Origin: a virus
DNA: 45,639 bases
IMG/VR virus record: IMGVR_UViG_3300028844_006960
Span: 1 to 45,639 of that record
Strand: one strand, 5' to 3'
This document shows, in pieces, positions 1,456 through 45,639 of the stretch. Every line of letters starts with the position of its first letter. The first letter of the stretch is position 1. The notes below the pieces were generated by a model, which was not told where the DNA came from, ran no database searches, and saw only the letters and a program-made list of their open reading frames with translations. The translations under genes and the position numbers were made by a program.

Positions 1456-1458
1456 ATG

Positions 1459-1718: not shown

Positions 1719-1741
1719 TAAAGCCCCTACTGTAAAAGAAA

Positions 1742-1764
1742 AGTCATTATTTAATGGCTTTTTT
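1742..1764 (+). terminator. rho-independent terminator
   Basis: GTCATTA / TAATGGC stem (one G-T pair) followed by TTTTTT. The T-run abuts the TATGCGCAGGT box at 1765, so terminator, box and next promoter are back to back. Confidence 0.7.
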
Positions 1765-1804
1765 TATGCGCAGGTATTGACAAAAGTTATTAATTTGTTA
1801 TTAT
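1765..1804 (+). promoter_or_regulatory. box A: TATGCGCAGGT element plus promoter
   Basis: TATGCGCAGGT at 1765-1775, one base, TTGACA (1777-1782), 16-bp spacer, TATTAT (1799-1804). Drives the 1831-3390 operon. Same box-to-promoter geometry as the boxes at 3472, 43766 and 43992. Confidence 0.8.
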
Positions 1805-1830
1805 AAATGAAACAAAAGGGAGAAAACTTA

Positions 1831-2990: not shown

Positions 2991-2991
2991 A

Positions 2992-3390: not shown

Positions 3391-3425
3391 TGAATAAAAA
3401 GAAACCTTTTAAAGTTTTAATCAAT

Positions 3426-3453
3426 TAAAAACCTATTATATAATAGGTTTTTT
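3426..3453 (+). terminator. terminator with palindromic TATTATATAATA core
   Basis: AACCTATTATATAATAGGTT is a perfect inverted repeat followed by T-rich sequence. The same terminator, with similar flanks and the same following box, occurs at 44736-44763, so the intergenic segment is duplicated. Confidence 0.7.
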
Positions 3454-3471
3454 TGTGTTTGCTTATTTATT

Positions 3472-3512
3472 TATGCGCAGGTCTTGCTATTTTTATTATA
3501 TTATAGTATAAT
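3472..3512 (+). promoter_or_regulatory. box B: TATGCGCAGGT element plus promoter
   Basis: Box at 3472-3482, one base, TTGCTA (3484-3489), 17-bp spacer, TATAAT (3507-3512). Drives the single gene at 3562. Confidence 0.75.
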
Positions 3513-3561
3513 AGAGAGTAAGAAGGCAAGAAGCCTTTTAAAAATAAAAGGAATTAAAAAA

Positions 3562-3765
3562 ATGAAATTAACAAAAATAAAAACAATACATAATAAAACA
3601 GTATTTATTAATACAGACTTTATAGCATCAGTTGAATACACAGGAAGTGGAAGTGGAAATGAAAATGTATATGTATTATTATCAGGAATTAATGAAAATT
3701 ATATGTTAACAAAAGAAGAGTTTGAAACAAAAATATTATTACAAGAAAAAATAAATAATTTTTAA
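3562..3765 (+). CDS. 67-residue hypothetical protein
   Basis: Start at 3562 set by AAAAGGAATT; an upstream extension would read through the promoter. Predicted beta-rich (TVFINTDFIASVEYTGSGSG, then VYVLLSG), like a small beta-sandwich or SH3-type fold. Alone in its transcription unit. Ends in INNF although no gene follows: the Phe-stop signature persists without a usable SD (AATAATTTTTAA). Confidence 0.65.
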   Translation: MKLTKIKTIHNKTVFINTDFIASVEYTGSGSGNENVYVLLSGINENYMLTKEEFETKILLQEKINNF

Positions 3766-3788
3766 TATAAAATTATAAACAAAAAAAA

Positions 3789-3814
3789 AAGACTTCAATT
3801 AAGAAGTCTTTTTT
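3789..3814. terminator. terminator, possibly bidirectional
   Basis: AAGACTTC / GAAGTCTT stem (3789-3796, 3803-3810) flanked by A- and T-runs, between the rightward 3562 gene and the leftward methyltransferase. The stem sequence is the same as in the terminator at 190-222. Confidence 0.75.
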
Positions 3815-3872
3815 GCATTCATCAATTATTAACTATGGATATGTTAATGCTTGCTATTATACCACAATTTAA

Positions 3873-4907
3873 TTATTTATCATCTTTTTTATTTAACTCA
3901 AATTCAATTCTTGCTTTTGCTATCTCTAAATATTCAGCATCTAAATCTATACCTACACCTTTAAAGCCTTCCCTTGCTGCTGCTTTCAATGTTGAACCAC
4001 TACCCAAAAATGGGTCTAAAATTAAGCCATTTTCAGGCGTTACTAATCTACATAAGTAAGCCATTAAATCAGTTGGCTTTACTGTTGGGTGGTTATTTTT
4101 TGCAACTGCTTTAACACTTCCATAAGCTTTTGCAACATCACCGTTTGTTCCACCGCCACCAATTGTTTGCTTATCTTCAAAATCATCCAAGCCTTCATTG
4201 CGATCCTTTTTGCTTGTTTTAGGTGAATAAAAATATTTAGTTTTCTCTCCTAAAATGTCAACTATTGGATCAGAGTTATCATGTATTAAGTTGGCTGGAA
4301 ATCTGCAACCTTTCAAATCACTATTATTAAATTCTTTTGATTCTTTATGCATTGAGTAAGAGGTTTTTTCTTTTTGCTCTGTTGCAATTCTACCAAGCTT
4401 TTCATCTGTTGGAATACGACAATCATCAATATTGATTCCTCCAACTCCGTTGACCAAAACATTTTCAGCAATCGTTTTCTCGCTTAATGGTTTTCTTGCA
4501 ATAGTAAAAGGTTCTAATGCTGGTTTTAGCGCTGTTCCAGTAATACCTTTTAAATCTGTTTCAATGCCTTTTTTCTTTAATGATTTTTCTATATTTAAAC
4601 TTTTGGGGAATCCACTTCCGTATAACCAGCCCCCCATGTCACGAATTTCGAATCCTGCATCCTCAATATTGCAAGCCATACGATGTTGTGTTCTTGTTCC
4701 AGCGAATGCTATCATATGACCGCCAGCTTTTAAAACTCGTAAGCATTCAGCCCAAATTTCTTTTGATGGAACGCCATGATCCCACTCTTTACCCATAAAC
4801 CCAATTCCGTATGGCGGATCGGTAACTATTGAATCGAAATGATTATCAGGGTATTTTTTTAATACTTCAAGGCAATTGCCGTGTTCTAATTTAAAATCTT
4901 TATTCAT
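3873..4907 (-). CDS. DNA methyltransferase, beta class (N6-adenine or N4-cytosine)
   Basis: 344 residues. The catalytic motif TDPPYG is at residues 29-34 and the S-adenosylmethionine-binding DPFLGSGS at 298-305, followed by a GIDLD strand. Catalytic motif before the cofactor motif is the beta-class order. DPPY is usual for adenine-N6 enzymes but does not exclude N4-cytosine. It transfers a methyl group to a specific DNA site; the sequence recognised is probably set by residues ~110-260 and cannot be read here. Last gene of the leftward operon from 7453; SD in ATTGGGAGATA. No cognate restriction enzyme is adjacent, so protection against host restriction or regulation is likely. Confidence 0.92.
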   Translation of the reverse strand: MNKDFKLEHGNCLEVLKKYPDNHFDSIVTDPPYGIGFMGKEWDHGVPSKEIWAECLRVLKAGGHMIAFAGTRTQHRMACNIEDAGFEIRDMGGWLYGSGFPKSLNIEKSLKKKGIETDLKGITGTALKPALEPFTIARKPLSEKTIAENVLVNGVGGINIDDCRIPTDEKLGRIATEQKEKTSYSMHKESKEFNNSDLKGCRFPANLIHDNSDPIVDILGEKTKYFYSPKTSKKDRNEGLDDFEDKQTIGGGGTNGDVAKAYGSVKAVAKNNHPTVKPTDLMAYLCRLVTPENGLILDPFLGSGSTLKAAAREGFKGVGIDLDAEYLEIAKARIEFELNKKDDK

Positions 4908-4931
4908 TTTTTTTTATATCTCCCAATATAT

Positions 4932-5051
4932 TTATGTTTGTTTTAATTTAAATCTTTTCTTTTTCTGTTTTCTTAAATAATCAAGTTGTTCCGTGTCTAT
5001 ATGAAAGCTTTTTTTCACACTTGAAAACGCTTTTAAAATATTATAATTCAT
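4932..5051 (-). CDS. 39-residue basic peptide
   Basis: ATG at 5051 preceded by AAAAGGAAAATAA inside the end of the upstream gene; stop at 4932-4934. The sequence is strongly basic toward the C-terminus (LRKQKKKRFKLKQT), which would suit nucleic-acid binding. Its stop and the following methyltransferase SD are about 10 bases apart. Short, but well placed in the operon with its own SD. Function unknown. Confidence 0.55.
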   Translation of the reverse strand: MNYNILKAFSSVKKSFHIDTEQLDYLRKQKKKRFKLKQT

Positions 5052-5394
5052 TTTTTTTATTTTCCTTTTTTAATTGTTTTTCTTTCTTTGATTTTTCAGC
5101 AAACCAAGCAATTTGTGATTGCCTTGTGTCTGTTTTCAATCTTGTTTTTTGGTTTTCTTTTCTTTTTGAAATCATGTCAATTATTTTTTTAAAGACTTCT
5201 TCAATTGTGATATCAGCAAAACAAGAAAACTTTTCATTTGTATTATTAAAACTTAATGTATAATGATTGCGCCTTTTATCAGCTATCACATCAAAGCCTT
5301 CATAATTAATAAAAATGCTTGTTATACTGTGTTTTTTTAATGTTGGTGTGTCAATTCTTGTTGAATAATCACACTCTTTTTTAATATCAATCAT
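5041..5394 (-). CDS. hypothetical protein with basic C-terminal tail
   Basis: 117 residues from ATG 5394, which overlaps the stop of the preceding gene; AGGATTGG upstream is the SD, and a GTG five codons earlier is less likely. The N-terminal ~70 residues look alpha/beta (INYEGFDVIADKRR); the last 35 are highly charged (EKSKKEKQLKKENKKNEL), possibly a helical tail. Function unknown. Confidence 0.65.
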   Translation of the reverse strand: MIDIKKECDYSTRIDTPTLKKHSITSIFINYEGFDVIADKRRNHYTLSFNNTNEKFSCFADITIEEVFKKIIDMISKRKENQKTRLKTDTRQSQIAWFAEKSKKEKQLKKENKKNEL

Positions 5395-5683
5395 GTTTCC
5401 AATCCTCACGTTTTAAACTTATATTTTTTATACCTTGCTTTTTCCATTCACTTCCTATTTTTTTTCTATCATAATTTTGACAATTTATATAAAATTCAAT
5501 GAATGTGTCAAGATTGTCATCTTCAATAAAATATTTAAGATTGTTTTTATTTTTTACAACTGAAATATTAAGAAGTTTTAAAGAAGAAGGCTTTTGAAAT
5601 TTATATCTAAAACCACTGATAGAATACTTTATATTGTTTTCTTCTTTTATTTTCTCCATTAATTTTGTTGTGATCTCAATCAT
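5387..5683 (-). CDS. hypothetical protein
   Basis: 98 residues from ATG 5683, which overlaps the stop of the small upstream gene. SD-like AAAGAGAA. The sequence is basic and contains a DDNLDTFIEFYINCQNYDRK stretch. No motif recognised. Tightly coupled to both neighbours in the leftward operon. Confidence 0.65.
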   Translation of the reverse strand: MIEITTKLMEKIKEENNIKYSISGFRYKFQKPSSLKLLNISVVKNKNNLKYFIEDDNLDTFIEFYINCQNYDRKKIGSEWKKQGIKNISLKREDWKHD

Positions 5684-5834
5684 TTTCAATTCTCTTTAAT
5701 TGCATCTCTTGATTCCTTAATAAAGCAGTAAGCAACCCTTTATTATTTTTATTTGAAATAATTAATTCTTCTTTACATTCTTTTATATTGTTTAATGTTG
5801 AAATTAATTCTTTTTGTATTTGTTTATTAGTCAT
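5676..5834 (-). CDS. 52-residue helical protein
   Basis: The ATG at 5834 follows the TTGGAGAACTTTTAA cassette that ends the upstream gene, so translation signals are strong despite the small size. Predicted all-helical (NKQIQKELISTLNNIKECKE...). The stop overlaps the next start. The length is consistent with a short coiled coil. Function unknown. Confidence 0.65.
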   Translation of the reverse strand: MTNKQIQKELISTLNNIKECKEELIISNKNNKGLLTALLRNQEMQLKRIEND

Positions 5835-5835
5835 T

Positions 5836-6309
5836 TTAAAAGTTCTCCAATTTATGCTTTATTTTAATTTTGTTGTATGCACCTTCACTTATTTTGTATT
5901 TATTTGATCTAAAACATTTAATATCAATGGTTAATTGAATAGATATTTTATAGCCATCATTTATTAACATTCTTTTTTCTACTTTACTTTTGATAAAATC
6001 AATATGACTTTTAAAATCCTCTGTTCTTGTTGTATAACATAAATTATTAAAGCCTTCTTCATTCTCTACAATACAATAATATATATCTTCTATTAATTCA
6101 TTTTCGTTTTGTAAATATTCAGCATCCAAAGATTCATTGCCAGCATCTTTTAATCTTATACCACTATGATCATAATATTTTCTATTATTTACATTATAAG
6201 TTTCAAACAAATAATGATTTTCAGGAAAGAACAATTTTGTTTCATAAGAGATTACAATATTTCCTTCATCTCCAAAAGTTTCATTTTTAAATCCAAGCAT
6301 TGCAAACAT
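5836..6309 (-). CDS. hypothetical protein, paralogue of the adjacent upstream gene
   Basis: 157 residues starting in a TAATG overlap. The segment LIEDIYYCIVENEEGFNNLC aligns with LYIEMIKDEETLKNLC of the neighbour, and the C-termini match closely (YNKIKIKHKLENF against YNKMKMKKKLENF), so the pair arose by tandem duplication. Ends KLENF, the coupling cassette. Fold and function not recognised. Confidence 0.65.
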   Translation of the reverse strand: MFAMLGFKNETFGDEGNIVISYETKLFFPENHYLFETYNVNNRKYYDHSGIRLKDAGNESLDAEYLQNENELIEDIYYCIVENEEGFNNLCYTTRTEDFKSHIDFIKSKVEKRMLINDGYKISIQLTIDIKCFRSNKYKISEGAYNKIKIKHKLENF

Positions 6310-6739
6310 TAAAAGTTCTCCAATTTCTTTTTCATTTTCATTTTATTATAATAGTTTTCATCATATTCATCCATTCTTTGAACTCTCATTGATCTAACTT
6401 TGAAAACAGTTGAATAAAAGATGTCTTTTCTCATTTGATCATTGCAAACATTAGTTTCAATGTTTTCTTTTATGAACTCAAAATGGTCTTGTTTTAAATA
6501 TGAATTAGTAACCAAACATAAGTTTTTTAAGGTTTCTTCATCTTTAATCATTTCAATATATAACTTATTAATAACTTTGTGTTGTATTGAATTAAATTCT
6601 TTTCTTATTTCGTGATTATCTACAAAGTCAAGTTTTCTGTGAAATTGAATATCAACTTTTGCTTTCTCTCCCCAACATAATTTTTTAATTTATATTTATT
6701 TGAAAAATCTTCATGTATCATTTTATTTTTAAAATTCAT
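6309..6739 (-). pseudogene. paralogue of the 5836 gene, apparently frameshifted at a CCCC (GGGG) run
   Basis: An ATG at 6739 with SD (TTGAGGAAATA) opens a frame that stops at 6620 after 39 codons. The -1 frame is open through the same region from just upstream of 6673 down to the stop at 6309 and carries the part homologous to the neighbour. The switch falls near GGGG at 6670-6673 (complement). Read through with one shift, the product would be about 140 residues and match the paralogue better over its N-terminal half. An 80-residue piece from ATG 6551 could still be made, without a clear SD. Real mutation, programmed shift or sequencing error are all possible. Confidence 0.55.
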
Positions 6740-6741
6740 TA

Positions 6742-7254
6742 TTATATTTCCTCAATGCATTCAATTGATTTTATTAATTCAATTTTACGTTTGCGATCAT
6801 TTGTTTCTTTTGCGATCTTCTGTAAGATTTCAAAAGCTTTTTCTTTTTCAATTTTTATTTCGTTAGTTGTCAATAATTCAGATGGCACTTTACAATTTAA
6901 GAAAACAAATTCTTTTTTTATTACTGGTTCAAGTTCTATATATTCAGTTCTTGTAGTTGTGCAGCCACTCATTAAAAATAATAATGTAAATAAACAAGCA
7001 GAATAAAAAAAGTATTTCAAAGATTTCTTGATGGTCTTAATATTCTCTTCTGCATTTAAAACAAAGTCTTGTGCTTTTCCACTTGAAAAATCAAAATAAT
7101 ATTTTGTATAAATATGTTTTTCATCTTCACTGAAAGTTTTTATTATATTTTTTAATTGTTTTTTATCAAAATGAGTTGTTGGTTTATGATTGAATTTTCT
7201 TGATATGCTTATTATCAATTTAGCTTCTTTTGATTCTATTTTATTTTTTTGCAT
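6742..7254 (-). CDS. protein with internal lipobox, possible outer-membrane spanin subunit
   Basis: 170 residues from ATG 7254 (SD TTGGAGAAC). Residues 1-78 are soluble and charged; 81-97 are hydrophobic and end in LFLMSGC, a lipobox with Cys98; the rest is a periplasmic-type segment. A lipoprotein signal 80 residues in is abnormal. A TTG at 7020 (Leu79) would start a 92-residue Rz1-like lipoprotein with a normal-length signal, so one ORF may encode two products. The spanin role is inferred from the lipobox and from the coiled-coil membrane protein at 8869. The upstream in-frame extension does not look coding. Confidence 0.5.
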   Translation of the reverse strand: MQKNKIESKEAKLIISISRKFNHKPTTHFDKKQLKNIIKTFSEDEKHIYTKYYFDFSSGKAQDFVLNAEENIKTIKKSLKYFFYSACLFTLLFLMSGCTTTRTEYIELEPVIKKEFVFLNCKVPSELLTTNEIKIEKEKAFEILQKIAKETNDRKRKIELIKSIECIEEI

Positions 7255-7453
7255 TTTGAAGTTCTCCAATTTTTTTGGAAAATCTTGCATAAGATAAGCA
7301 GTCTTTTATTTGTGTTTTATTTAATAAATTATATTTATGTATTTTTTTATTATATCTATAATTTTTTAAATCGTTTTCTATAAAATCAAGTTCTTGAAAT
7401 GTCATTAATTTTAAATTACTTTTTAATACTCTTGTTTTCTCATTATCTTTCAT
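7241..7453 (-). CDS. 70-residue hypothetical protein
   Basis: ATG at 7453 with SD AAAAGGGAG; first gene of the 7453-3873 operon. Basic and predicted helical (FQELDFIENDLKNYRYNKK). Near its end, an A7 run (complement) puts the KKLENF coupling signature in another frame, so the protein ends GELQNAKK instead. A one-base change there would restore the usual C-terminus. Function unknown. Confidence 0.65.
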   Translation of the reverse strand: MKDNEKTRVLKSNLKLMTFQELDFIENDLKNYRYNKKIHKYNLLNKTQIKDCLSYARFSKKIGELQNAKK

Positions 7454-7476
7454 GATATACTCCCTTTTGTAGTAAT

Positions 7477-7504
7477 AATATATCATATAAAATGCGCAGG
7501 TCAA
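7477..7504 (-). promoter_or_regulatory. box C: leftward promoter with the box inside the spacer
   Basis: On the minus strand: TTGACC (7504-7499), 16-bp spacer, TATATT (7482-7477). The element reads AATGCGCAGGT on the plus strand (7491-7501), so its GGT end overlaps the -35 box and its body occupies the spacer. This orientation is opposite to boxes A, B and D. Drives the 7453-3873 operon. Confidence 0.65.
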
Positions 7505-7553
7505 CAAAAAAACCATTATATATTGACTTTTTTAACTATTTTAATAATAAAGG

Positions 7554-7692
7554 TTGTAATTGTTATATTATAATATATAATAGAGGTATGCAAAAAAAGT
7601 ATTCTCCCAATATATATTTGTGTAAGTTATTATTTAACATTTTTATAATAACGCCTTTTGTAAAAAGCCCTTGATTAATTTCAGGGGCTTTT
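7554..7692 (+). ncRNA. short rightward transcription unit (small RNA or 28-residue peptide)
   Basis: TTGTAA (7554-7559), 16-bp spacer, TATAAT (7576-7581) would start an RNA near 7588 that ends at the hairpin 7661-7692, about 105 nt. An ATG exactly at 7588 opens a 28-codon hydrophobic peptide (YLCKLLFNIFIITPF) but with no usable SD; it would have to be leaderless. The stretch 7505-7698 holds no other gene. Weakly supported. Confidence 0.3.
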
Positions 7693-7694
7693 TT
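7661..7694. terminator. bidirectional terminator
   Basis: AAAAAGCCCTTGA / TCAGGGGCTTTTT stem (one mismatch) with A-rich left and T-rich right flanks. It ends the leftward operon 10049-7699 and any rightward transcript from 7554. Confidence 0.8.
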
Positions 7695-7698
7695 TTAT

Positions 7699-8142
7699 TT
7701 AAAAGTTATCTAATTTATTATTTATTTTATAAGCATTCAAATATTGTTGTATTCTATCATAACAATCATCTTCATTCTCATTAAGTGGGCAGTTATGAGC
7801 AGATGCCCATTCTTCAACTTTAAAACTTTCAAGATTTATTTTATAATAAATTATTTCAACATTAACATATATTGATTTTTTATTTTTAAATAATTCATTA
7901 TTTATTAAATCAATAAAAACATTATAATTAAAATCTTCAACATTAATTCTTATTCTTTTTTCAGCTCCATCTTTATTCCAAAAATCTATTTTTAATTTAT
8001 TTTCTTTGAGTTCTTTCAACTCTTTTTCTTTTTTTATTATTATTTTTATAGCTTCAACAATATTAAAAGTATCAAAATAAACATATGTAAACATTGACAA
8101 TGAAAATATAAGACTACAAATAAAAAATATAATATCAAACAT
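7699..8142 (-). CDS. membrane-anchored hypothetical protein
   Basis: 147 residues. Residues 3-24 form one transmembrane helix (IIFFICSLIFSLSMFTYVYF), then a charged helical linker (KKEKELKELKENKLK) and a C-terminal domain with Cys in HNCPLNE and DDCYD. Last gene of the leftward operon. It still ends KINNKLDNF, the Phe-stop signature, although a terminator rather than a gene follows. Function unknown; a superinfection or lysis role is conceivable but not shown. Confidence 0.65.
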   Translation of the reverse strand: MFDIIFFICSLIFSLSMFTYVYFDTFNIVEAIKIIIKKEKELKELKENKLKIDFWNKDGAEKRIRINVEDFNYNVFIDLINNELFKNKKSIYVNVEIIYYKINLESFKVEEWASAHNCPLNENEDDCYDRIQQYLNAYKINNKLDNF

Positions 8143-8144
8143 AA

Positions 8145-8528
8145 TTAAAACCCCTTCAAATTGTTTTCAATCTTTTCTTTTACTTCTCTTTCTTTTATTG
8201 TTTTAATTAATGTTTCAAGCTTTACGTTATGATAATGGATATTCCTATTTGATTTAGTTTTATAATGCTCACGTAAATCTTTTTTATAGTGCTCAAAAGT
8301 TTCAGCATCACAATATTTTAGTTTTTCGTTAAAATCAAATTGTTGTGCATAATCGGATGGAATATATGGATTGTTATTTTTCATTGAAAACCCTTTTATG
8401 TTTTCTTTTAATTTTTGTTTTCTTCTTTTCATTTCTTCCCTTTCAATTCTTGCTTGATCGTTTTCCAAAGTAAACAAGCTATAACCTTTAAAATCCAGTG
8501 TAAATTCAACCTCTGTTTCTTTGTCCAT
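8145..8528 (-). CDS. hypothetical protein that looks like a fusion of two coupled genes
   Basis: 127 residues. Residues 1-47 end ENIKGF, then Ser48 (TCA at 8388-8386) and Met49 (ATG at 8385). The bases AAAAGGGTTTTCAATG are the usual coupling cassette (SD, TTT, stop, ATG) with the stop TAA changed to TCA, so two neighbouring genes now read as one. The C-terminal 79 residues also end in the signature (ENNLKGF). Internal initiation at 8385 still looks possible. Both halves are charged and predicted helical; function unknown. Confidence 0.65.
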   Translation of the reverse strand: MDKETEVEFTLDFKGYSLFTLENDQARIEREEMKRRKQKLKENIKGFSMKNNNPYIPSDYAQQFDFNEKLKYCDAETFEHYKKDLREHYKTKSNRNIHYHNVKLETLIKTIKEREVKEKIENNLKGF

Positions 8529-8529
8529 T

Positions 8530-8850
8530 TTAAAATTCCTTTAATTTATTGATTATTGTTACATCATTAAAACCTAATTTTTTTAATGCCCACTTTATAT
8601 CATCACGCTCACTTCTAAACATTTCATCATCAATAAAATAATCAAGAATAAATTCATTATTTATAAAATGCATTTTACAAGGCATATATTCAAAAGATGG
8701 TTTTCTTGTGAAAAAGTCATTATCGGTAATTTTAACTTTTGATATTGAATAGTATTCATTATTTTTTATATTTTTAAAATAAAGTTTTTCACCTTGCAAA
8801 TCTCTTTTGTCGTTTTCTTGAAACTCTTGTTTTATAATTATTACATCCAT
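8530..8850 (-). CDS. hypothetical protein
   Basis: 106 residues, with the strongest SD of the operon (AAAGGAGG). Alpha/beta composition with aromatic-rich strands (EKLYFKNIKNNEYYSISKV). Ends TIINKLKEF; the codons AAA GAA TTT TAA act as SD for the next gene. No family recognised. Confidence 0.65.
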   Translation of the reverse strand: MDVIIIKQEFQENDKRDLQGEKLYFKNIKNNEYYSISKVKITDNDFFTRKPSFEYMPCKMHFINNEFILDYFIDDEMFRSERDDIKWALKKLGFNDVTIINKLKEF

Positions 8851-8868
8851 TATTAAGCCTCCTTTTAT

Positions 8869-9297
8869 TTAATTAAATATCTTGTTTAAGCTTTCAACCA
8901 TTTCATCGTCAACTATTGTTTGCAAACATTTTTTATTTTTTATTTTATTTAATTCAGCATTTATTTTTTTGTTGTCTTCTTCTTTTATTGTTTGATTATC
9001 TTTTAATAATATATTAATAATTTTTAGTTGTTCGTTTTCTTCTTTCAAAGTTTCATTATTATTATTTAAGATTTCAATTTCTTTGTTATTGTTACAACGA
9101 TTCCTTTCTTCGATCACTTTTATTTTGTTTGCTTCATTACTTGATATTAAAATTTTGTTTTCTTCTTCAAGATTTGAAATAGTAGTTTTGCTATCTATAT
9201 AAAAATAGATGGCTATTGTCAAAACAACTGAAAGAACAATTGTTATTGCTTTACTTTGTAATATTGTAGTTCCAGTTTTTATTAATTTATCTATCAT
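8869..9297 (-). CDS. inner-membrane spanin-like protein (Rz-type architecture)
   Basis: 142 residues: a single N-terminal transmembrane helix (about 17-34), then a long coiled coil (38-125; ISNLEEENKILISSNEAN and KEENEQLKIINILLKD) and a short C-terminal part. Cytoplasm-in anchor plus periplasmic coiled coil is the layout of phage i-spanins, which link to an outer-membrane lipoprotein to fuse the membranes at lysis. The possible lipoprotein partner is encoded at 6742-7254, not adjacent. Assignment rests on architecture only. SD AAAGGGG lies inside the preceding gene's end. Confidence 0.5.
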   Translation of the reverse strand: MIDKLIKTGTTILQSKAITIVLSVVLTIAIYFYIDSKTTISNLEEENKILISSNEANKIKVIEERNRCNNNKEIEILNNNNETLKEENEQLKIINILLKDNQTIKEEDNKKINAELNKIKNKKCLQTIVDDEMVESLNKIFN

Positions 9298-9298
9298 T

Positions 9299-9481
9299 TT
9301 AAAACCCCTTTAATTTATTATTTATTTTATTTCTTATTTCTTCTTTTTTAAATCTCATAACTTCTTGCCTTTTAATTTCTATTGATTCAACCATTTCATT
9401 ATTCCAATTATTAACAGTGAAACCTTTATTTATATTTCCATTTTCATCAAACACTCTATACATGTCAGGTTTATCACTCAT
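9299..9481 (-). CDS. 60-residue hypothetical protein
   Basis: ATG 9481 with GGAAGGAAAAAA upstream; overlaps the end of the preceding gene by 8 bases. Contains FDENGNINKGFTVNNWNNE and a basic helical C-terminus ending INNKLKGF, encoded so that AAAGGGG plus TTTTAA form the next gene's SD and stop. Function unknown. Confidence 0.65.
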   Translation of the reverse strand: MSDKPDMYRVFDENGNINKGFTVNNWNNEMVESIEIKRQEVMRFKKEEIRNKINNKLKGF

Positions 9482-9680
9482 CGTTTTTTCCTTCCAATAG
9501 ACTAAATTTAAAATTTTCAATCAGCCACAAAATTTGTTCATTGCTTAAATTGCCATCATATGTTGTTTTCATATTTCCATTTTTGTCCCATCCAACAACA
9601 AACATACTTTCATAAATACCTTTGGATTGTTCCAAAATATCATCAGCATCTTTTTTTATTTTTATTATTTTAGTTTTCAT
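9474..9680 (-). CDS. 68-residue hypothetical protein
   Basis: ATG 9680 after an AAAGGAGTTTTAATA cassette. The middle reads VVGWDKNGNMKTTYDGNLSN followed by a helix (EQILWLIENFKFSLLEG). This strand-turn-helix pattern recalls small phage and plasmid proteins of unknown function. Not assigned further. Confidence 0.65.
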   Translation of the reverse strand: MKTKIIKIKKDADDILEQSKGIYESMFVVGWDKNGNMKTTYDGNLSNEQILWLIENFKFSLLEGKNDE

Positions 9681-9682
9681 TA

Positions 9683-9841
9683 TTAAAACTCCTTTATTTT
9701 TCGTTGCATTACTTTTTCTCTTAATTCTTCTTTGCTTTCTTCACAAAGAATGCTCTTGTTAATTAAAAAATTAAGTATTTTTGCATTACCTAATTTTAAA
9801 TGAAGATCAATCATTTCATCAGTGAGTTCAATTTCATGCAT
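9683..9841 (-). CDS. 52-residue hypothetical protein
   Basis: ATG at 9841, overlapping the end of the upstream gene; stop at 9683-9685. Helical and acidic N-terminus (MHEIELTDEMIDLHLKLGNA), basic end MQRKIKEF with the coupling cassette AAAGGAGTTTTAA that supplies the next SD. Its own SD is weak (GTGAGC), so it probably depends on coupling. Confidence 0.6.
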   Translation of the reverse strand: MHEIELTDEMIDLHLKLGNAKILNFLINKSILCEESKEELREKVMQRKIKEF

Positions 9842-10049
9842 TTAGAAAGCTCACAATAAGAAAACAAATAAACAGTGATGAAATCCAGAATAATAAAACA
9901 AGAACAAAAGCTGCAATCATTAAAGTTACACACTCGTCAATTAAAGAATATTTTTTATTTCGTTTTTCTTCATCTTTTTCATTATTAAAAAAATAATTTA
10001 TAAATAAAATAATTGGTGTTGATATAATTAAAATAATATAATCAATCAT
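9834..10049 (-). CDS. small two-helix membrane protein, holin or superinfection-type candidate
   Basis: 71 residues with transmembrane helices at about 3-21 and 44-69, separated by a strongly charged loop (NNEKDEEKRNKKY). Size and topology fit a class II holin or antiholin, but also other small phage membrane proteins. First gene of the leftward operon, SD AAAGGGGA, just downstream of box promoter D. A better holin candidate sits beside the endolysin at 14395. Confidence 0.6.
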   Translation of the reverse strand: MIDYIILIISTPIILFINYFFNNEKDEEKRNKKYSLIDECVTLMIAAFVLVLLFWISSLFICFLIVSFLNA

Positions 10050-10081
10050 TTTGTTGTTCCCCTTTTTGTTTTTATTCCCTT

Positions 10082-10119
10082 ATATTATCATTAAAATAAA
10101 CTTTGTCAACCTGCGCATA
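10082..10119 (-). promoter_or_regulatory. box D: TATGCGCAGGT element plus leftward promoter
   Basis: On the minus strand TATGCGCAGGT (10119-10109) runs directly into TTGACA (10109-10104, sharing one T), then a 16-bp spacer and TAATAT (10087-10082). Drives the eight-gene operon 10049-7699. Confidence 0.8.
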
Positions 10120-10126
10120 ATAAAAA

Positions 10127-10150
10127 AAGCCCACAAAAATATGTGGGCTT
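10127..10150. terminator. terminator
   Basis: AAGCCCACA / TGTGGGCTT perfect 9-bp stem with a 6-base loop. The A-run on its left serves the leftward gene ending at 10173; box D begins just below it. Confidence 0.8.
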
Positions 10151-10172
10151 AATTATAGGGGTAAACAGTTTT

Positions 10173-10682
10173 TTATTTTATCTTGTTGACTTCATTCTTG
10201 AATGCTTTTAATGTTGGCATTTTATCATTTAATAATGAATTAAGAAAAGAAGTTAAGCAAACAGTTAACATGTAATCAACTTCATCAATCTTGTCTTCTT
10301 CAAATACTTTTGACATCGATGCACAAGTGATGTGAAAATCTGTAAGTCTTAATTTTGAATAATTTATTTCATTTTCATTTTCAGGTTTATTTGTTAATAC
10401 TAAATTAATAACGCCTTGAAAATCTTCAAGACTTTTATTATTTTTTAAATCAAAAGCCCTTTCTTTTTTCTCACCTTTTGAATTTACAAAACAAAATAAA
10501 ATATTATTAATTTTTTTCTCTTCTAAAAAATTATGTAACTCTTCATAATGTATTAATTCAGCAACTTTTTCTTTAACTCTTTTTTTTGCTTTTGTTTTTG
10601 CAACCTTCTTTGGCATGTTTAATTTTTCATTATAATGTTTCGAAAGTTTTCTGATCGCTTTTCTTGTGTTTAATGTTGGCAT
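10173..10682 (-). CDS. hypothetical protein with basic N-terminus
   Basis: 169 residues. The first ~45 are very basic (RKLSKHYNEKLNMPKKVAKT, then KAKKRVKEKV), suggesting nucleic-acid binding; the remainder is alpha/beta. Starts one base into the preceding gene's stop (shared position 10682). Last gene of a three-gene operon. No family recognised. Confidence 0.65.
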   Translation of the reverse strand: MPTLNTRKAIRKLSKHYNEKLNMPKKVAKTKAKKRVKEKVAELIHYEELHNFLEEKKINNILFCFVNSKGEKKERAFDLKNNKSLEDFQGVINLVLTNKPENENEINYSKLRLTDFHITCASMSKVFEEDKIDEVDYMLTVCLTSFLNSLLNDKMPTLKAFKNEVNKIK

Positions 10683-12199: not shown

Positions 12200-12610
12200 G
12201 AAAGGTCAAGAGATATAGTGCTATCGCACACTGACAACACTACGTGTTGATTGTTTTATTATGTATATGCCTATTAATTCGTGTTTTTAACCACCTTTTA
12301 GCATTAACCTATATAACCACAAGTTAAAGCGATTGCGAATAGCAATCAAGACCATTCTTTTACAGTGTTGCGTAGCAACTTTAAACATAACAAATATAAT
12401 AAATAATAATTGAAAAAACAATATTAGTTATAAGTAATAGTTAGTAAGGTATAAACTCCGCCAAATATCAACGATTTATTAAAAAAGCGTAGTATAGCAA
12501 AGGGCAAAAAATAGTATAGCAAAGGGCAAAACCTTTTTTTATAATACAATAGTATATTAAAGGGCAAAATTAAAACTAACTAAAAACCCTTTATATAAAG
12601 GACTTTTTAG
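12200..12610. other. origin-like region, left copy
   Basis: Non-coding. From left to right: GGTCAAGAGATAT (12204-12216), a series of short hairpins (12218-12229 GTGC/GCAC, 12235-12249 CAACAC/GTGTTG, 12331-12347 GATTGC/GCAATC, 12367-12379 GTTGC/GCAAC), an AT-rich stretch, and three iterons (12491-12569). About 150 bp around and left of the iterons is repeated in inverted orientation at 41577-41750. The GGTCAAGAGATAT/CAACAC hairpin block is repeated in direct orientation at 41771-41817. I see no exact DnaA box here. Confidence 0.65.
12491..12569 (+). repeat. three iterons, left origin-like region
   Basis: AGTATAGCAAAGGGCAAAA at 12491-12509 and 12513-12531; AGTATATTAAAGGGCAAAA at 12551-12569. 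Starts are 22 and 38 bp apart. The same three units with the same spacings occur on the other strand at 41577-41655. Confidence 0.9.
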
Positions 12611-40471: not shown

Positions 40472-41449
40472 TTAAAAAAAATGATTTTTAACTGATAAGT
40501 TGCCTTTATTTAAATTTTCAATTGCTTTCATTTTTAATTCTTTTTGTTTTGTTGTCTCTTCTTTCATTAATAAAATACTTTCAACAGTAGTTCCAATTGT
40601 ATTTTTTGAATTATCTTCTTTTATTTTAGTTAATGAAATGCTATCATCAATATTAAGTTTATATTTACCAGTTATTATTTTATTTGTTGCTAATTCTTTT
40701 AATGCAGCATTTATTTTTTTTCTTTGGTGTGGCGTTAATTTTACGCTTTTATCATTAATGTTTTTAATATCATTAAATTTATTTCGAACAGGTGAAGAAT
40801 ACAATTGTATTTTATTATTTTTTGAATCAATATTATTTATTAAAGGAAATAATACTTTTGAATATTCAAGCTTTAAATTCAACAATGTTTCAATTTCAAA
40901 AAAAGATTGGTTTGTTGAAGTGAAAAAGTTTAAAAAATCATTAACAAAATTAACAATTAAGATTGTTTCTTTGCCATCTTTTTCTTGTTTCCAACTTGAA
41001 AGAATATTGAAGTTTCCTTTTCTTTCTTGGCTTTCATTACATAAAACTTTTATATTACATTCAATATGTTTATCAAGTGAATTATAAATCCTTTCTTTTG
41101 TGTCTTTGTCATTTTGTTTCTTTTTTGCTATTCCCATTTTTGCAGCTAAATCTCTAACTGAAATTTTAACAGTTGAGGTTGATTCTTCAAAATTAAAATC
41201 ATTAATACTTAATAAGCAGAATAAAACAAGTTCATCAGTTTTTGCATTCATTGGAACAAGATTTAATTCATAAGTTTGTTTTTTAGTTCTAAAATATTTA
41301 ACTTCTTTTATACAATTTATTGTTTGATTTTCTTCTAAATTATTTAGTTTATAATCTCTTTTTGAATCTATAACTTGATATATATTTGTTGTATTGAATT
41401 GAGAACTTACAGATTGATCAGTTGTTAAAGATTTAAATTTTTTAGTCAT
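40472..41449 (-). CDS. plasmid-type replication initiator (Rep_3/RepB-like)
   Basis: 325 residues. The layout suggests two winged-helix domains: LVLFCLLSINDFNFEESTST with VRDLAAKMG in the first, and LKLEYSKVLFPLIN plus LTPHQRKKINAALKELATNK in the second, as in iteron-binding initiators. The strongest argument is context: three iterons lie just upstream of its promoter, and it is the only replication-type gene besides the resolvase. It would bind the iterons and recruit host replication proteins. The family assignment should be confirmed by profile search. Confidence 0.62.
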   Translation of the reverse strand: MTKKFKSLTTDQSVSSQFNTTNIYQVIDSKRDYKLNNLEENQTINCIKEVKYFRTKKQTYELNLVPMNAKTDELVLFCLLSINDFNFEESTSTVKISVRDLAAKMGIAKKKQNDKDTKERIYNSLDKHIECNIKVLCNESQERKGNFNILSSWKQEKDGKETILIVNFVNDFLNFFTSTNQSFFEIETLLNLKLEYSKVLFPLINNIDSKNNKIQLYSSPVRNKFNDIKNINDKSVKLTPHQRKKINAALKELATNKIITGKYKLNIDDSISLTKIKEDNSKNTIGTTVESILLMKEETTKQKELKMKAIENLNKGNLSVKNHFF

Positions 41450-41451
41450 TT

Positions 41452-41519
41452 TATGCGCACCTTTGTTTTATATTACCTATTATATTACATAATAATATAA
41501 TTGCAAATACCTACGCATA
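41452..41519 (-). promoter_or_regulatory. box J: TATGCGTAGGT element plus promoter of the initiator gene, with second variant box
   Basis: Minus strand TATGCGTAGGT (41519-41509), two bases, TTGCAA (41506-41501), 16-bp spacer, TATAAT (41484-41479). A variant box (plus strand TATGCGCACCT, 41452-41462) overlaps the SD AAAGGTG just before the ATG at 41449. The initiator thus appears to belong to the same regulon as the accessory genes. Confidence 0.72.
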
Positions 41520-41539
41520 TTATTATTGATAATCATTAA

Positions 41540-41830
41540 AAAGTGTATTAAATAAAGGGTTTTAATTTTATTAATATTTTGCCCTTTAATATACTATTAT
41601 ATAATAAAAAAAGGTTTTGCCCTTTGCTATACTTTTTTTTGCCCTTTGCTATACTAAGCTTTTTTAATAAATCGTTGATATTTGGCGGAGTTTATGCCTT
41701 ACTAACTATTACTTATAACTAATATTGTTTTTTTAATTATTATTTATGTATTTTGTTGTGTTAAAAGCAAGGTCAAGAGATATGGTTGCTACGCAACACT
41801 GGCAACACTACGTGTTGATTGTTTTTTATT
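41540..41830. other. origin-like region, right copy
   Basis: Contains three iterons (41577-41655) and about 100 bp beyond them that match, in inverted orientation, the left copy at about 12400-12600, including a block beside the iterons (TTAATAAATCGTTGATATTT, GGCGGAGTTTAT, CTTACTAACTATTACTTATA). From 41771 the GGTCAAGAGATAT block and hairpins 41785-41797 (GTTGC/GCAAC) and 41803-41817 (CAACAC/GTGTTG) follow, in direct orientation to the left copy. The AT-rich stretch 41830-42036 holds no gene but includes the DnaA-box match at 41932. Confidence 0.7.
41577..41655 (-). repeat. three iterons, right origin-like region
   Basis: On the minus strand: AGTATAGCAAAGGGCAAAA at 41655-41637 and 41633-41615, AGTATATTAAAGGGCAAAA at 41595-41577. 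Spacings of 22 and 38 bp equal those of the left set. Confidence 0.9.
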
Positions 41831-41931
41831 TATTTGTTCTATTTATGTATTTAAAAAGACCTTTAATATATCAAGCCTTATGTTAATACTATTTTATATT
41901 TAAACATACCTTAAAAATCATTTTAATAACC

Positions 41932-41940
41932 TTATACACA
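41932..41940 (+). promoter_or_regulatory. DnaA-box match
   Basis: TTATACACA matches the DnaA consensus TTATNCACA exactly, about 280 bp from the right iterons. Such boxes are usual in iteron origins. One nine-base match in an AT-rich genome is only supportive. Confidence 0.5.
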
Positions 41941-42036
41941 TTTATTTCTCTTTTTCAGTAATGTTTTTAAAAGCCCACTACTAATTTTTCTTATAACGAA
42001 CCCACTATAAAAAAAATAAGATAATTAAATAAAAAC

Positions 42037-42100
42037 TTGACATCTTGATTTTGAGATCAATTATATATATTAATTACATCGTATTTACTTATGCGTAGGT
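42037..42100 (+). promoter_or_regulatory. promoter region of the resolvase operon with inverted repeat and box K
   Basis: TTGACA (42037-42042) is followed at 18-19 bp by TATATA (about 42061-42067). TTGAT/ATCAA (42045-42060) forms an inverted repeat in the spacer, a probable operator. Box K (TATGCGTAGGT, 42090-42100) lies downstream of the -10, unlike the other boxes. The -10 assignment is weak. Confidence 0.45.
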
Positions 42101-42137
42101 TATGATAAAATATAACTATACAAAAGGAATAAAACAA

Positions 42138-42749
42138 ATGGAAGATTTAACAAAAGAACAATTATTAAAACTACTTGAAAATAAAAATGGTAAATTGGTT
42201 TATGTATCACAATTTATTAATACTCCGCTTGTTTCAATTAATTCTGCTTATCATTTTACAAAAACAGGTTCAAGAATAATAAAAGTTAAAAACAAAAAAT
42301 CAAAAGAATTTCAAAAACTAACTTATGATTACATTAAAAATATTGTTTTAGATAATAACAAACATTATAAAATATTTGTTGAAATGCATGTGAATTATCA
42401 ATCAAGCGATGTTGATAATAGATTTAAACTATTACTTGATATCATTGAAAATGCGGCAAATCGTGCTCCTTGGGATTATAACGAATCAACACCTTACGTG
42501 CCAAATGGTTTTGATGACAAGCAATTTTTAAGGGTTGAAGGCGAGAAAATCAAAGTTAAGAAAGCCGATCAAGGTTTTCAATTTTTCATTTATGAGCATA
42601 AACAAGATGAAAGATCGCTTGATTTTGATTTTACCAAAAAAGAAAAAAAGCAAACTAAAACAACAAAAAAGCCAGCTAAAAAAGAAACGACAAAAGAGCA
42701 ATTAAAAAGAAAGGTTGATGAGAAGTTAAAGGCGAGAGGTTTATTATAA
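42138..42749 (+). CDS. rusA: RusA-like Holliday junction resolvase
   Basis: 203 residues from ATG 42138 (SD AAAAGGAAT). The catalytic core reads DVDNRFKLLLD (residues 91-101: Asp91, Asp93, Asn94, Lys97) and GFDDKQFLRVEGEKI (Asp126, Asp127), the DxDN..K...D and DD...I..l pattern of RusA, preceded by the substrate-binding N-terminal sheet (NTPLVSINSAYHF). It resolves four-way junctions or branched DNA before packaging. N- and C-terminal extensions (a ~20-residue helix and a Lys-rich tail) make it longer than the ~120-residue E. coli protein. First gene of a three-gene operon. Confidence 0.85.
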   Translation: MEDLTKEQLLKLLENKNGKLVYVSQFINTPLVSINSAYHFTKTGSRIIKVKNKKSKEFQKLTYDYIKNIVLDNNKHYKIFVEMHVNYQSSDVDNRFKLLLDIIENAANRAPWDYNESTPYVPNGFDDKQFLRVEGEKIKVKKADQGFQFFIYEHKQDERSLDFDFTKKEKKQTKTTKKPAKKETTKEQLKRKVDEKLKARGLL

Positions 42750-43111
42750 TGAAATTTAATAATATAAAAAGAAGAAAAAAAGAAAAAAATTTTATAGATG
42801 AATACAAAAATAAAATTGTTTTTTATTATGATTACAATGTAAATTCAACAATATCATCAAATAAAATAATTATTAATATAGAAGATTTAGATGATGAATT
42901 AAAAAACATTTATAAAGAAGTTAAATTTGATCATTGTATTAGTGTTCAAATTTGTGCATCAGGATTCTTTAAGATGAATTTAAATAGTTTTGAAGTTTTT
43001 GATGGATTCTCTTTTGGAGATAAAAATAATTATGAAGTAGAAAAAGAAAAAATAATAAATTATTTTAAGCATTCCGAAATTAGAGAAAAGATTGAAGGTT
43101 TTTTAAAATGA
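42749..43111 (+). CDS. hypothetical protein
   Basis: 120 residues, start overlapping the resolvase stop (TAATG). Basic start, beta-rich middle (KIVFYYDYNVNSTISSNKII). The end REKIEGFLK carries the coupling cassette with one extra T (GAAGGTTTTTTAAAATG), so the protein reads two residues past the usual Phe before a TGA that overlaps the next ATG. Function unknown. Confidence 0.65.
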   Translation: MKFNNIKRRKKEKNFIDEYKNKIVFYYDYNVNSTISSNKIIINIEDLDDELKNIYKEVKFDHCISVQICASGFFKMNLNSFEVFDGFSFGDKNNYEVEKEKIINYFKHSEIREKIEGFLK

Positions 43112-43317
43112 TTAATCAAGTTAAACAAGTATTGAAACATAAGAAATATATTCAATTAAAAAATTATAATATGTTATTTAGTGATGATAGATTTAAAAAC
43201 TTTCACAAATTAAATAAAATATATTCATCAATTAAAGATATTGAAATAATGCAAGATTTAATAAATAAAGATGAGAAGGCATATAAAGATGTCTTAAAAA
43301 TGTTAAGGAAGCTATAA
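43108..43317 (+). CDS. 69-residue hypothetical protein
   Basis: Start overlaps the previous stop by four bases; SD GAAGG within that gene. Lys-rich and helical (KQVLKHKKYIQLKNYNMLF). Last gene of the resolvase operon, followed by a TATTATATAATA palindrome and T-run (43323-43345) that probably terminates it. Confidence 0.6.
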   Translation: MINQVKQVLKHKKYIQLKNYNMLFSDDRFKNFHKLNKIYSSIKDIEIMQDLINKDEKAYKDVLKMLRKL

Positions 43318-43362
43318 GAACGTATTATATAATAGGGTTTTTAACTATATTAAAATATAAAG

Positions 43363-43390
43363 TTGATTTAATATATAATTATACTATAAT
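43363..43390 (+). promoter_or_regulatory. sigma70-type promoter for the 43466 gene
   Basis: TTGATT (43363-43368), 16-bp spacer, TATAAT (43385-43390). No box. A leader of about 70 bases precedes the gene. Confidence 0.65.
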
Positions 43391-43465
43391 ATAATTAGAT
43401 AGTTTATATTATGATGCAATTTATCGACAATTTAAACACTTAATAAAAAACAAAAGGAATTATAT

Positions 43466-43717
43466 ATGAATAACACAACCAAAAACACAGTATTTGCAGC
43501 TGCTATTATTGCAGCTTTAAGCCCTCTTGCGGATTTCGACAATGTAAAAGACTATAATGATGAAGTGGGTTCAGCAAACTCAATTGCAGAGCTTACAAAA
43601 TTACAAGGTAAACCTATTAAGCAGGAGAAGAAGGCAATTCAGCAATGTTTACAAGAGAAGATTGAAAGTTTAAAATGTAAAACAATAAAAAATAATGTAA
43701 CTAAACTTAAAATGTAA
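43466..43717 (+). CDS. 83-residue hypothetical protein, possibly exported
   Basis: SD AAAAGGAAT. The N-terminus (KNTVFAAAIIAALSPLADFD) is hydrophobic and may be a short signal or helix; it lacks the early basic cluster of a classical signal peptide. The rest is charged with two Cys (QQCLQEKIESLKC). Own promoter and terminator. Function unknown. Confidence 0.6.
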   Translation: MNNTTKNTVFAAAIIAALSPLADFDNVKDYNDEVGSANSIAELTKLQGKPIKQEKKAIQQCLQEKIESLKCKTIKNNVTKLKM

Positions 43718-43738
43718 TCATAAAATAAATAATATTAG

Positions 43739-43765
43739 AAAGCAATCAAATAAGATTGCTTTTTT
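43739..43765 (+). terminator. rho-independent terminator
   Basis: AAAGCAATC / GATTGCTTT perfect stem and T-run that runs straight into box L at 43766, as at 1742-1765. Confidence 0.8.
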
Positions 43766-43806
43766 TATGCGTAGGTATTGACAAAATAAAAAAACTATTA
43801 TATATT
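43766..43806 (+). promoter_or_regulatory. box L: TATGCGTAGGT element plus strong promoter
   Basis: Box 43766-43776, one base, TTGACA (43778-43783), 17-bp spacer, TATATT (43801-43806). The downstream unit has no convincing protein gene. Confidence 0.78.
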
Positions 43807-43981
43807 TATAGGTGATGATTATGCGATTATCAAAACGAAGCGGTCAAGTTTTTTTTTAAATTTCCTTTAATCAATGTCCTGCCTTGATCGTCTTCACCTT
43901 ATATTAAAATAAAAATAGTTATATATTTTTTTTTGCACAAAGTTTTAAATGAATTCCTTTTGTTTCCTTTGTGTTTTTTTT
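43807..43981 (+). ncRNA. candidate structured small RNA
   Basis: Between a strong box promoter and the next box there is no plausible gene: the only ORF (ATG 43820) is 12 codons long without an SD. The sequence can fold: AGGTGA (43810-43815) with TCACCT (43894-43899), and inside it CGGTCAAG (43841-43848) with CTTGATCG (43883-43890). A second stem CACAAAG/CTTTGTG (43936-43942, 43967-43973) with T8 would terminate transcription at about 43981, giving a ~165-nt RNA. Expected role: antisense or regulatory RNA; target unknown. Confidence 0.45.
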
Positions 43982-43991
43982 GTCTTTTTTT

Positions 43992-44031
43992 TATGCGTTG
44001 GTATTGATTTAATTATATTATAATATATAAT
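43992..44031 (+). promoter_or_regulatory. box M: TATGCGTTGGT element plus promoter
   Basis: Variant box (43992-44002), one base, TTGATT (44004-44009), 16-bp spacer, TATAAT (44026-44031). Drives 44064-44721. Confidence 0.72.
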
Positions 44032-44063
44032 AAAAATAGAAATAGAAAAAGGAGATTTTAAAA

Positions 44064-44438
44064 ATGGAAAACTATATCAAAATAAATAATACAATAATTA
44101 AAAACATTTCAAGCTTTCGATTTAATGAAGAAGACAAAAAAGATTTGTCAACATATTTCAAAAACCATAAGCAGCACCCTTTAGTTTGTGTTGATGGTCA
44201 ATTTAATTTTGTTTTCTTATGCGTTGATTTAGAAGACAACACGATGAACTTTACAGAGTTTTCAAATAAGCAAGGATTTATTGAATTTGTTGAGGTGCTG
44301 ATGTGCTTTGGCTTGTCTTCTGTTCCATCTGATTTATTTCAAGATGAGAATGTAAAGAATGAATTTTATATTGCATTAAGAGAAATAAAATTATTGGAAG
44401 AAATGAAAAGACAAAAAGAAGAAGCCGATGCAAAATAA
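44064..44438 (+). CDS. hypothetical protein
   Basis: 124 residues, SD AAAAGGAGA. Alpha/beta (VCVDGQFNFVFLCVDLED) with a helical charged C-terminus (LLEEMKRQKEEADAK). Overlaps the next gene by 11 bases. No family recognised. Confidence 0.65.
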   Translation: MENYIKINNTIIKNISSFRFNEEDKKDLSTYFKNHKQHPLVCVDGQFNFVFLCVDLEDNTMNFTEFSNKQGFIEFVEVLMCFGLSSVPSDLFQDENVKNEFYIALREIKLLEEMKRQKEEADAK

Positions 44439-44721
44439 AGAAGACTTATTAAAAATTAAATTCAAAATATACGGCAAGCTAAAAGAAAGGTTTCAAAGTG
44501 TGGATGCTGATGATTTTGATGTTTGCTTTGATATAGTAAACGATGAATTTTTTACTGAAATGGATAATAATATTATTTATAATTTATCTTTTAAATATAA
44601 TTTTAATAATGAAAACCAAGTCGCAAGCCTTAATGACAGAAAAGATTTTTTATATAATATGATAGTAAAGGATGCATCATTTAATGAATTCAAATTAAAA
44701 ACCAATGTAGATAGCTTTTAA
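44428..44721 (+). CDS. hypothetical protein
   Basis: 97 residues, SD AAGAAGA within the upstream gene. N-terminal helix, acidic centre (VDADDFDVCFDIVNDEFF). Ends NVDSF: the Phe-stop signature is retained at the end of the operon with a decayed SD (GATAGCTTTTAA). Function unknown. Confidence 0.62.
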   Translation: MQNKEDLLKIKFKIYGKLKERFQSVDADDFDVCFDIVNDEFFTEMDNNIIYNLSFKYNFNNENQVASLNDRKDFLYNMIVKDASFNEFKLKTNVDSF

Positions 44722-44735
44722 AAAAGAAATCAATT

Positions 44736-44763
44736 AAAAACCTATTATATAATAGGTTTTTTT
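44736..44763 (+). terminator. terminator, copy of 3426-3453
   Basis: AACCTATTATATAATAGGTT with flanking A- and T-runs, preceded by CAATTAA as at 3421. Followed 19 bases later by box N, as the first copy is followed by box B. Confidence 0.72.
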
Positions 44764-44781
44764 ATGTTTTGTTAATTAATT

Positions 44782-44821
44782 TATGCGTAGGTCTATTATT
44801 TTAATTATACCATGATATAAT
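44782..44821 (+). promoter_or_regulatory. box N: TATGCGTAGGT element plus promoter
   Basis: Box 44782-44792; -10 TATAAT at 44816-44821. The expected -35 position (about 44793-44798) reads CTATTA, a poor match, so activity may depend on a factor bound at the box. Confidence 0.65.
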
Positions 44822-44854
44822 ATAGACATAAGCAAAACAAAAGGAATTAACAAA

Positions 44855-45163
44855 ATGGATTTTAAAAACACATACTTAATAACAACTGAATATGACACAG
44901 ACGAATGCACAACAAGAACATCAATTGATTTTTTAACAAAAGAATTATTGACTCAAATTGATTTGACAATAGAAGAATATATTGAAGAAACCACTTCAAC
45001 AATGAAAACAAATAAAATAATTAACACAAGAGTTTTAAAAAATATAAAACAAAAAGAATTAATACAGGAGTATTTGAATAATGGTTATCAAATAGAATAC
45101 AAGGAAGAACTGAAAAAAGAAATAATATTTTTAGAAACTAAGCAAACAATAAAAAACTTTTAA
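44855..45163 (+). CDS. hypothetical protein
   Basis: 102 residues, SD AAAAGGAATT. Thr-rich N-terminal half (YLITTEYDTDECTTRTSIDF), helical basic end. Ends TIKNF, the Phe-stop signature without an SD; a terminator follows. Single-gene unit. Function unknown. Confidence 0.65.
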   Translation: MDFKNTYLITTEYDTDECTTRTSIDFLTKELLTQIDLTIEEYIEETTSTMKTNKIINTRVLKNIKQKELIQEYLNNGYQIEYKEELKKEIIFLETKQTIKNF

Positions 45164-45190
45164 AAAGTAAACAAATTAAATAATATTAAT

Positions 45191-45218
45191 AAGATAACTA
45201 AATTTAGTTATCTTTTTT
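45191..45218 (+). terminator. rho-independent terminator
   Basis: AAGATAACTAAA and TTTAGTTATCTT form a perfect 12-bp inverted repeat, followed by TTTT. Confidence 0.8.
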
Positions 45219-45219
45219 A

Positions 45220-45255
45220 TTGACTTTTTTTTATATATTGTTATCATAACAATAT
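45220..45255 (+). promoter_or_regulatory. promoter with a perfect 21-bp palindromic operator
   Basis: TTGACT (45220-45225), 16-bp spacer, TATCAT (45242-45247). The half-sites ATATTGTTAT (45235-45244) and ATAACAATAT (45246-45255) around one central C form a perfect palindrome over the -10 box. A repressor bound here would block RNA polymerase; the HTH protein encoded just downstream is the natural candidate. Confidence 0.78.
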
Positions 45256-45270
45256 TATTGAGGAGATAAC

Positions 45271-45639
45271 ATGAAGAATAAAATATTAAGAGATATAAAA
45301 GAAGGCAACTTTTTAACAATAAAACAGATAGCCAAAAAAAATAAAATAAGTTTTGATGATGCTGTTGATATCATAAGAGAGTTAAGAGAAACCAAAAAAA
45401 TTATATCAATGAAGGATGAATATAGATCCAGAAGAAAAATAATATTAAAAGAATTATTTGAAGAAAACATTTATATGTCGTATGACATCATAGAAAAAAG
45501 AATGAATTTAAAACCTTCATCAGTTAATAAATTATTAAGAGATAACAATATTTATATTAATAAACATAATTCAAAAATAAAGGATGCTGTATTAAATGAA
45601 TTAAAAACAAATAATAATATCGATGGCGTTAAATTATCA
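45271..45639 (+). CDS. N-terminal part of a four-HTH DNA-binding regulator (continues at 1-201)
   Basis: 123 codons from ATG 45271 (SD TTGAGGAGATAA) to the window end without a stop, in frame with bases 1-201; total 189 residues. Predicted HTH units at about 15-45 (LTIKQIAKKNKISFDDAVDI), 67-96 (MSYDIIEKRMNLKPSSVNKL), 117-146 and 163-186. Four successive winged-helix-like units with little else are unusual. The palindromic operator on its own promoter implies autoregulation. It is the best candidate for a master regulator, possibly of the TATGCGYAGGT sites, though that link is a guess. Confidence 0.8.
   Translation, partial: MKNKILRDIKEGNFLTIKQIAKKNKISFDDAVDIIRELRETKKIISMKDEYRSRRKIILKELFEENIYMSYDIIEKRMNLKPSSVNKLLRDNNIYINKHNSKIKDAVLNELKTNNNIDGVKLS

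Follow-up and report, generated by a model that had tools for sequence, protein, structure and literature searches.

The closest described phage system is the TipsytheTRex/L5 repressor of the cluster A mycobacteriophages, a monomer that reads its asymmetric site through an HTH together with a further HTH-like domain and binds only when the two are linked (PMC9283540); domain IV of SelB holds four winged-helix domains per chain (PMC8124441). MarR proteins are defined by one winged HTH with N- and C-terminal dimerisation helices, and Lrp/AsnC proteins by an N-terminal HTH followed by a RAM domain. A literature search on tandem HTH phage regulators returned the two-domain mycobacteriophage case only, and no 191-residue phage protein made of four HTH-like units alone was found in it. 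The locus described here had been picked out in a sequence-only reading, which took known phage repressors to have one HTH per chain; the two DNA-binding domains of the cluster A repressor contradict that generalisation.

The window (the whole stretch of DNA that was analysed) covers the whole of an IMG/VR virus record, 45,639 bases long with 26.6% GC. Its ends share no direct repeat of at least 12 bases, and it carries the gene set of a tailed phage (terminase, portal, head, tape-measure and tail genes), with distant kinship to phages of Pseudomonadota. Starting at 45271, the four-HTH gene has met no stop codon where the window ends, and its frame goes on at base 1. The locus is made up of the following parts:

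45191 to 45214, + strand: likely terminator of the upstream gene, judged from its sequence, a 12-bp perfect inverted repeat followed by a T-run
45220 to 45247, + strand: promoter TTGACT-16 bp-TATCAT with an extended -10 TG, the -10 lying inside the palindrome
45235 to 45255, no strand: perfect 21-bp palindrome ATATTGTTATCATAACAATAT (10+1+10), putative auto-operator over the -10
45271 to 45639, + strand: first 123 codons of the four-HTH gene (units 1 and 2, start of unit 3), which goes on at 1 to 201
1 to 201, + strand: last 66 codons and the stop codon of the four-HTH gene (rest of unit 3, unit 4)
188 to 212, no strand: likely terminator, inverted repeat AAAAGACTTC...GAAGTCTTTT over the four-HTH stop codon

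IMG/VR has another record of almost the same phage, IMGVR_UViG_3300004097_000024 (L003), which matches window positions 40482-45639 and then 1-10198 in one unbroken match at 99.96-100% identity, and contains the four-HTH ORF uninterrupted at 7581-8156. The earlier joining of the ORF across the window ends was thereby borne out, as L003 runs straight through the seam, and an artefact of joined contig ends is ruled out. The product length given in that reading, 189 residues, had to be corrected: six A's (AAAAAA) of an A-run are absent from the window at the seam and present in L003, so the true protein is 191 aa long, with KLSKKLNISYS in L003 where the window has KLSLNISYS. The six missing bases are two Lys codons within the third HTH, and the two lysines improve the HTH_24 Pfam score from E 0.4 to 3.7e-05. 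At the base composition of the window, 191 stop-free codons have a chance of ~1e-8 per given start, and a Shine-Dalgarno-like GAGGAG lies 5' of the ATG. With DNA nearly identical to the window, L003 confirms the seam and does not serve as an independent, diverged homologue. Searches for such a homologue, by tblastn in phages and plasmids and by pattern-based scanning of contigs from viruses and genomes, found none beyond the same phage; 369 genomes from the class of an Acinetobacter genome, a class which may not be that of the host, contained none either, and scans of viral contigs with the terminase and tail proteins returned no close relative of the phage.

Other features of the phage were seen along the way. 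A gene for a Rep3_N plasmid-type initiator (40472-41449, - strand) adjoins three 22-bp iteron-like repeats, TTTTGCCCTTTGCTATAC, at 41577-41658; a second, inverted copy of ~230 bp lies at 12379-12609, with the stretch 12470-12569 inside it, and is 91% identical. The phage may be a phage-plasmid that has two origin-like regions. L003 has 145 bases more than the window (its 2647-2791) at 40481/40482, close to the Rep gene's 3' end. A shared C-terminal tail of the type (I/L)NNKL(D/E/K)(G/E/N)F, possibly a common docking or degradation tag, is found on many short proteins that are otherwise dissimilar and are encoded by these ORFs:

1807-2643, 2643-2990, 2977-3390, 3484-3765, 5836-6309 and 6309-6551
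7699-8142, 8145-8528, 8530-8850, 9299-9520 and 44855-45163

The sequence-only reading had placed a perfect 21-bp palindrome over the -10 of the gene's own promoter, and this held exactly, on the extended -10 TATCAT. With the start site inferred from the -10, the palindrome spans ~-19 to +2, so that merely its end would be transcribed; this position excludes an mRNA hairpin and makes the palindrome a DNA site. Perfect palindromes with arms of at least 10 and a spacer of at most 1 occur four times against 0.8 expected per window under a Markov model, the other three being terminator-like hairpins, two of them identical. The size of the palindrome is by itself unremarkable in AT-rich DNA, and it is its promoter position that makes it notable. 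A search of the window at up to three mismatches yielded no further copy. The sequence-only reading had suggested that a four-unit chain could read a long or repeated site or bridge two sites; the sole palindrome, at 21 bp, has room for two HTH units, and its sequence is not repeated in the phage. As the repeat at 45191-45214 likely terminates the upstream gene, the four-HTH gene has its own promoter, and the repeat at 188-212 sits between it and the convergent 232-540 gene; together these terminator-like repeats point to a transcript of this gene only. Elsewhere in the window, 26-bp perfect palindromic terminators, AAAAACCTATTATATAATAGGTTTTT, are identical at 3427-3452 and 44736-44761, and each is followed by a promoter with the TATGCGYAGGT box described below.

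The 191-aa protein appears to consist of four units at about 1-53, 54-100, 101-150 and 151-191 (roughly 41-53 residues each). Nearly all Pfam matches of the whole protein were to HTH or winged-HTH families, with HTH_24 (residues 106-146) and MarR (163-189) above the curated cut-offs, and HTH_28, HTH_36 (68-90), HTH_29 and DnaD_N (4-56) below them. Profile evidence for the HTH superfamily therefore exceeds the Pfam cut-offs for units 3 and 4, whereas units 1 and 2 have only weak, sub-threshold matches. When scanned singly, each unit matched mainly HTH or winged-HTH families, strongly in the case of unit 3 only; unit 2 reached HTH families at E>=0.036 only, and DnaD_N and S25 were among the best matches of unit 1. 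Neither five shuffled copies of the protein nor five other proteins of the window matched HTH families at E<=1. A joint shuffle test supported similarity among the units (p=0.002), due to pairs 1-3 and 3-4, and unit 2 resembled the other units no more than expected by chance. The resemblance to Lrp was weak (phmmer, NCBIfam), as was a match of residues 95-148 to positions 5-58 of the 116 in phrog_142, a Ren-like exclusion family (E 0.001); there was no full-length phrog_142 match that would make the protein a Ren-like exclusion protein.

Single-sequence AF2 modelling of the full-length protein gave low confidence (pLDDT 55.1, pTM 0.29), with predicted three-helix groups in units 1 (helices 2-10/17-23/28-40), 2 (47-64/71-78/82-91) and 4, and unit 3 partly merged. 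When the C-terminal 100 residues were folded alone (pLDDT 57.5), six helices were predicted as 3+3 and unit 3 was resolved (101-113/117-126/130-142 in unit 3, 152-162/165-172/176-188 in unit 4). Unit 1 had the best confidence in the chain, with block means of 68-85 over residues 1-40 and a normal three-helix pattern. Neither low-confidence model had a significant match when searched against PDB folds; somewhere along its chain, the full-length model matched the AsnC-type HTH of 2ia0 locally at low rmsd (1.1 A over 40 columns), and 1lva (SelB) was present, without significance, among its matches. The predicted helix pattern thus fits four units and does not speak against them, while the models are too weak for proof. 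The earlier description of four HTH units stood as far as their positions and HTH-like sequence are concerned; the four folds themselves were not secured, as the Pfam matches of units 1 and 2 are weak and the AF2 models have low confidence. The protein is strongly basic (pI 10.0, net charge +22), and the net charge of the third helix is -3 in unit 1 and +1, +2 and +6 in units 2-4. Unit 1 is the least likely base reader because its third helix, the expected recognition helix, is acidic, and it may be structural rather than DNA-reading.

A second motif, TATGCGYAGGT, is over-represented in the window, with 24 sites at up to two mismatches against 6.6 expected. Of 15 box-like sites, 8 are followed at a distance of 23-24 bases by a -10 matching in at least 5/6 positions, where the background rate is 0.062, and these boxes are:

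1765, 3472, 43766, 43992 and 44782, + strand: box at a fixed 23-24 bases upstream of the -10
10119, 25575 and 41519, - strand: box at a fixed 23-24 bases upstream of the -10

The centre of the box falls at ~-41 to -42, just upstream of the -35, and a centre near -41 to -42 is the class II activator position in bacterial promoters. At 42090 the box lies between -35 and -10, as it does at 7491 and 11379, where it is apparently reversed. No such box was found upstream of the four-HTH gene's own promoter. A scan of viral contigs for box plus -35 found the box-promoter layout in the same phage only; other matches were single, in GC-richer contigs, and probably due to chance. Two further HTH-like ORFs lie downstream of the four-HTH gene, one at 722-1093, with a near-perfect 36-bp inverted repeat, GTTAACCATTTAGTGAATATTTACTAATTGGTTAAC, over its promoter at 653-688, and one at 1518-1718 with weak matches to Sta1/Lrs14. 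Any of the three HTH-like ORFs may be a candidate box reader.

The reading I favour, at about an even balance of probability, is that of an autorepressing phage regulator of four tandem tri-helical HTH-like units with its own sigma-70-type promoter, and from promoter geometry and sequence family autorepression appears likeliest. Transcribed alone from this promoter, the gene would yield a protein that binds the palindrome over the -10, blocks RNA polymerase and so limits its own level. The palindrome's two neighbouring major grooves would be occupied either by two basic units within a single chain or, in a dimer, by one unit per chain, and the leftover units would provide extra affinity, hold the dimer together or contact other phage promoters. 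How many units read DNA is a separate matter of anatomy, compatible with any functional reading. That two or three are true DNA-reading HTHs, with units 1 and/or 2 being HTH-resembling helical modules for dimerisation, is quite possible though short of even: the acidic third helix of unit 1, its DnaD_N and S25 matches and the poor E-values of unit 2 alone point this way, while the top AF2 confidence and normal three-helix pattern of unit 1, and the local 2ia0 match from the full-length model, point against it.

Counted against autorepression is that nothing favours the four-HTH protein over another regulator as the binder of the palindrome. The palindrome might be read by a host factor or by the 722-1093 or 1518-1718 protein, in which case the four-HTH protein would act at some other place, on the host genome for instance, or in phage exclusion. 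The 722-1093 gene also has an inverted repeat at its own promoter, and the phrog_142 match would agree with action elsewhere, but this match overlies unit 3 and may merely reflect a shared HTH. Phage regulators, moreover, commonly control themselves through a palindrome at their promoter, which weakens this alternative, and I consider it unlikely. A role as activator of the box promoters, with the asymmetric box read by a monomer through at least two units and the palindrome left to autoregulation or another factor, seems unlikely too, though marginally less so. The -10 spacing is fixed in 8 of 15 sites, and these are upstream of genes; the four-HTH promoter is without a box, as expected if the protein is made before the products of the box genes; and linked units in a monomer suit an asymmetric site, as with the mycobacteriophage repressor on its asymmetric 13-mer (PMC9283540). 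However, no result links the protein directly to the box, the two other HTH-like ORFs could equally be its readers, and the box is placed differently relative to the promoter at 7491, 11379 and 42090. Most ambitious, and very unlikely, is a two-site switch in which four non-identical HTHs would repress through the palindrome and activate about eight box promoters from -42, different pairs of units serving each site and one chain timing the whole programme.

If all four units bind DNA, the protein would be a natural phage regulator built as a modular chain of DNA readers, useful for learning how linked HTHs divide recognition between palindromic and asymmetric sites, and for linked-module repressors. 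If only some do, it would be a phage repressor of the usual autoregulated sort, unusual just in its dimerisation part.

Compared with the known systems, the protein resembles the cluster A repressor, which is likewise small (183 aa in L5) and whose chain holds a pair of DNA-binding units, an HTH plus an HTH-like Stoperator fold (PMC9283540). It differs in having four units rather than two, and one palindrome in place of an asymmetric site repeated more than 20 times; tblastn against 50,697 phage records including mycobacteriophages gave no match, and the single palindrome likewise sets it apart from that group. In SelB, a single chain likewise carries four winged-helix domains (PMC8124441), but SelB is a translation factor that binds SECIS RNA, its fragment in 1lva has 258 residues, and there is no significant similarity. 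Units 3 and 4 resemble the HTHs of Lrp/AsnC and MarR, with HTH_24 and MarR above cut-off, yet there is no room here for a RAM ligand domain or MarR dimer helices, and the unit is repeated within one chain. The MarR match covers profile positions 18-44 of 59 alone, at the C-terminal end of the chain, and the Lrp/AsnC match is confined to residues 95-146 of a chain without a RAM domain, which places the protein in neither family. The arrangement is unusual, yet it is assembled from well-known parts.
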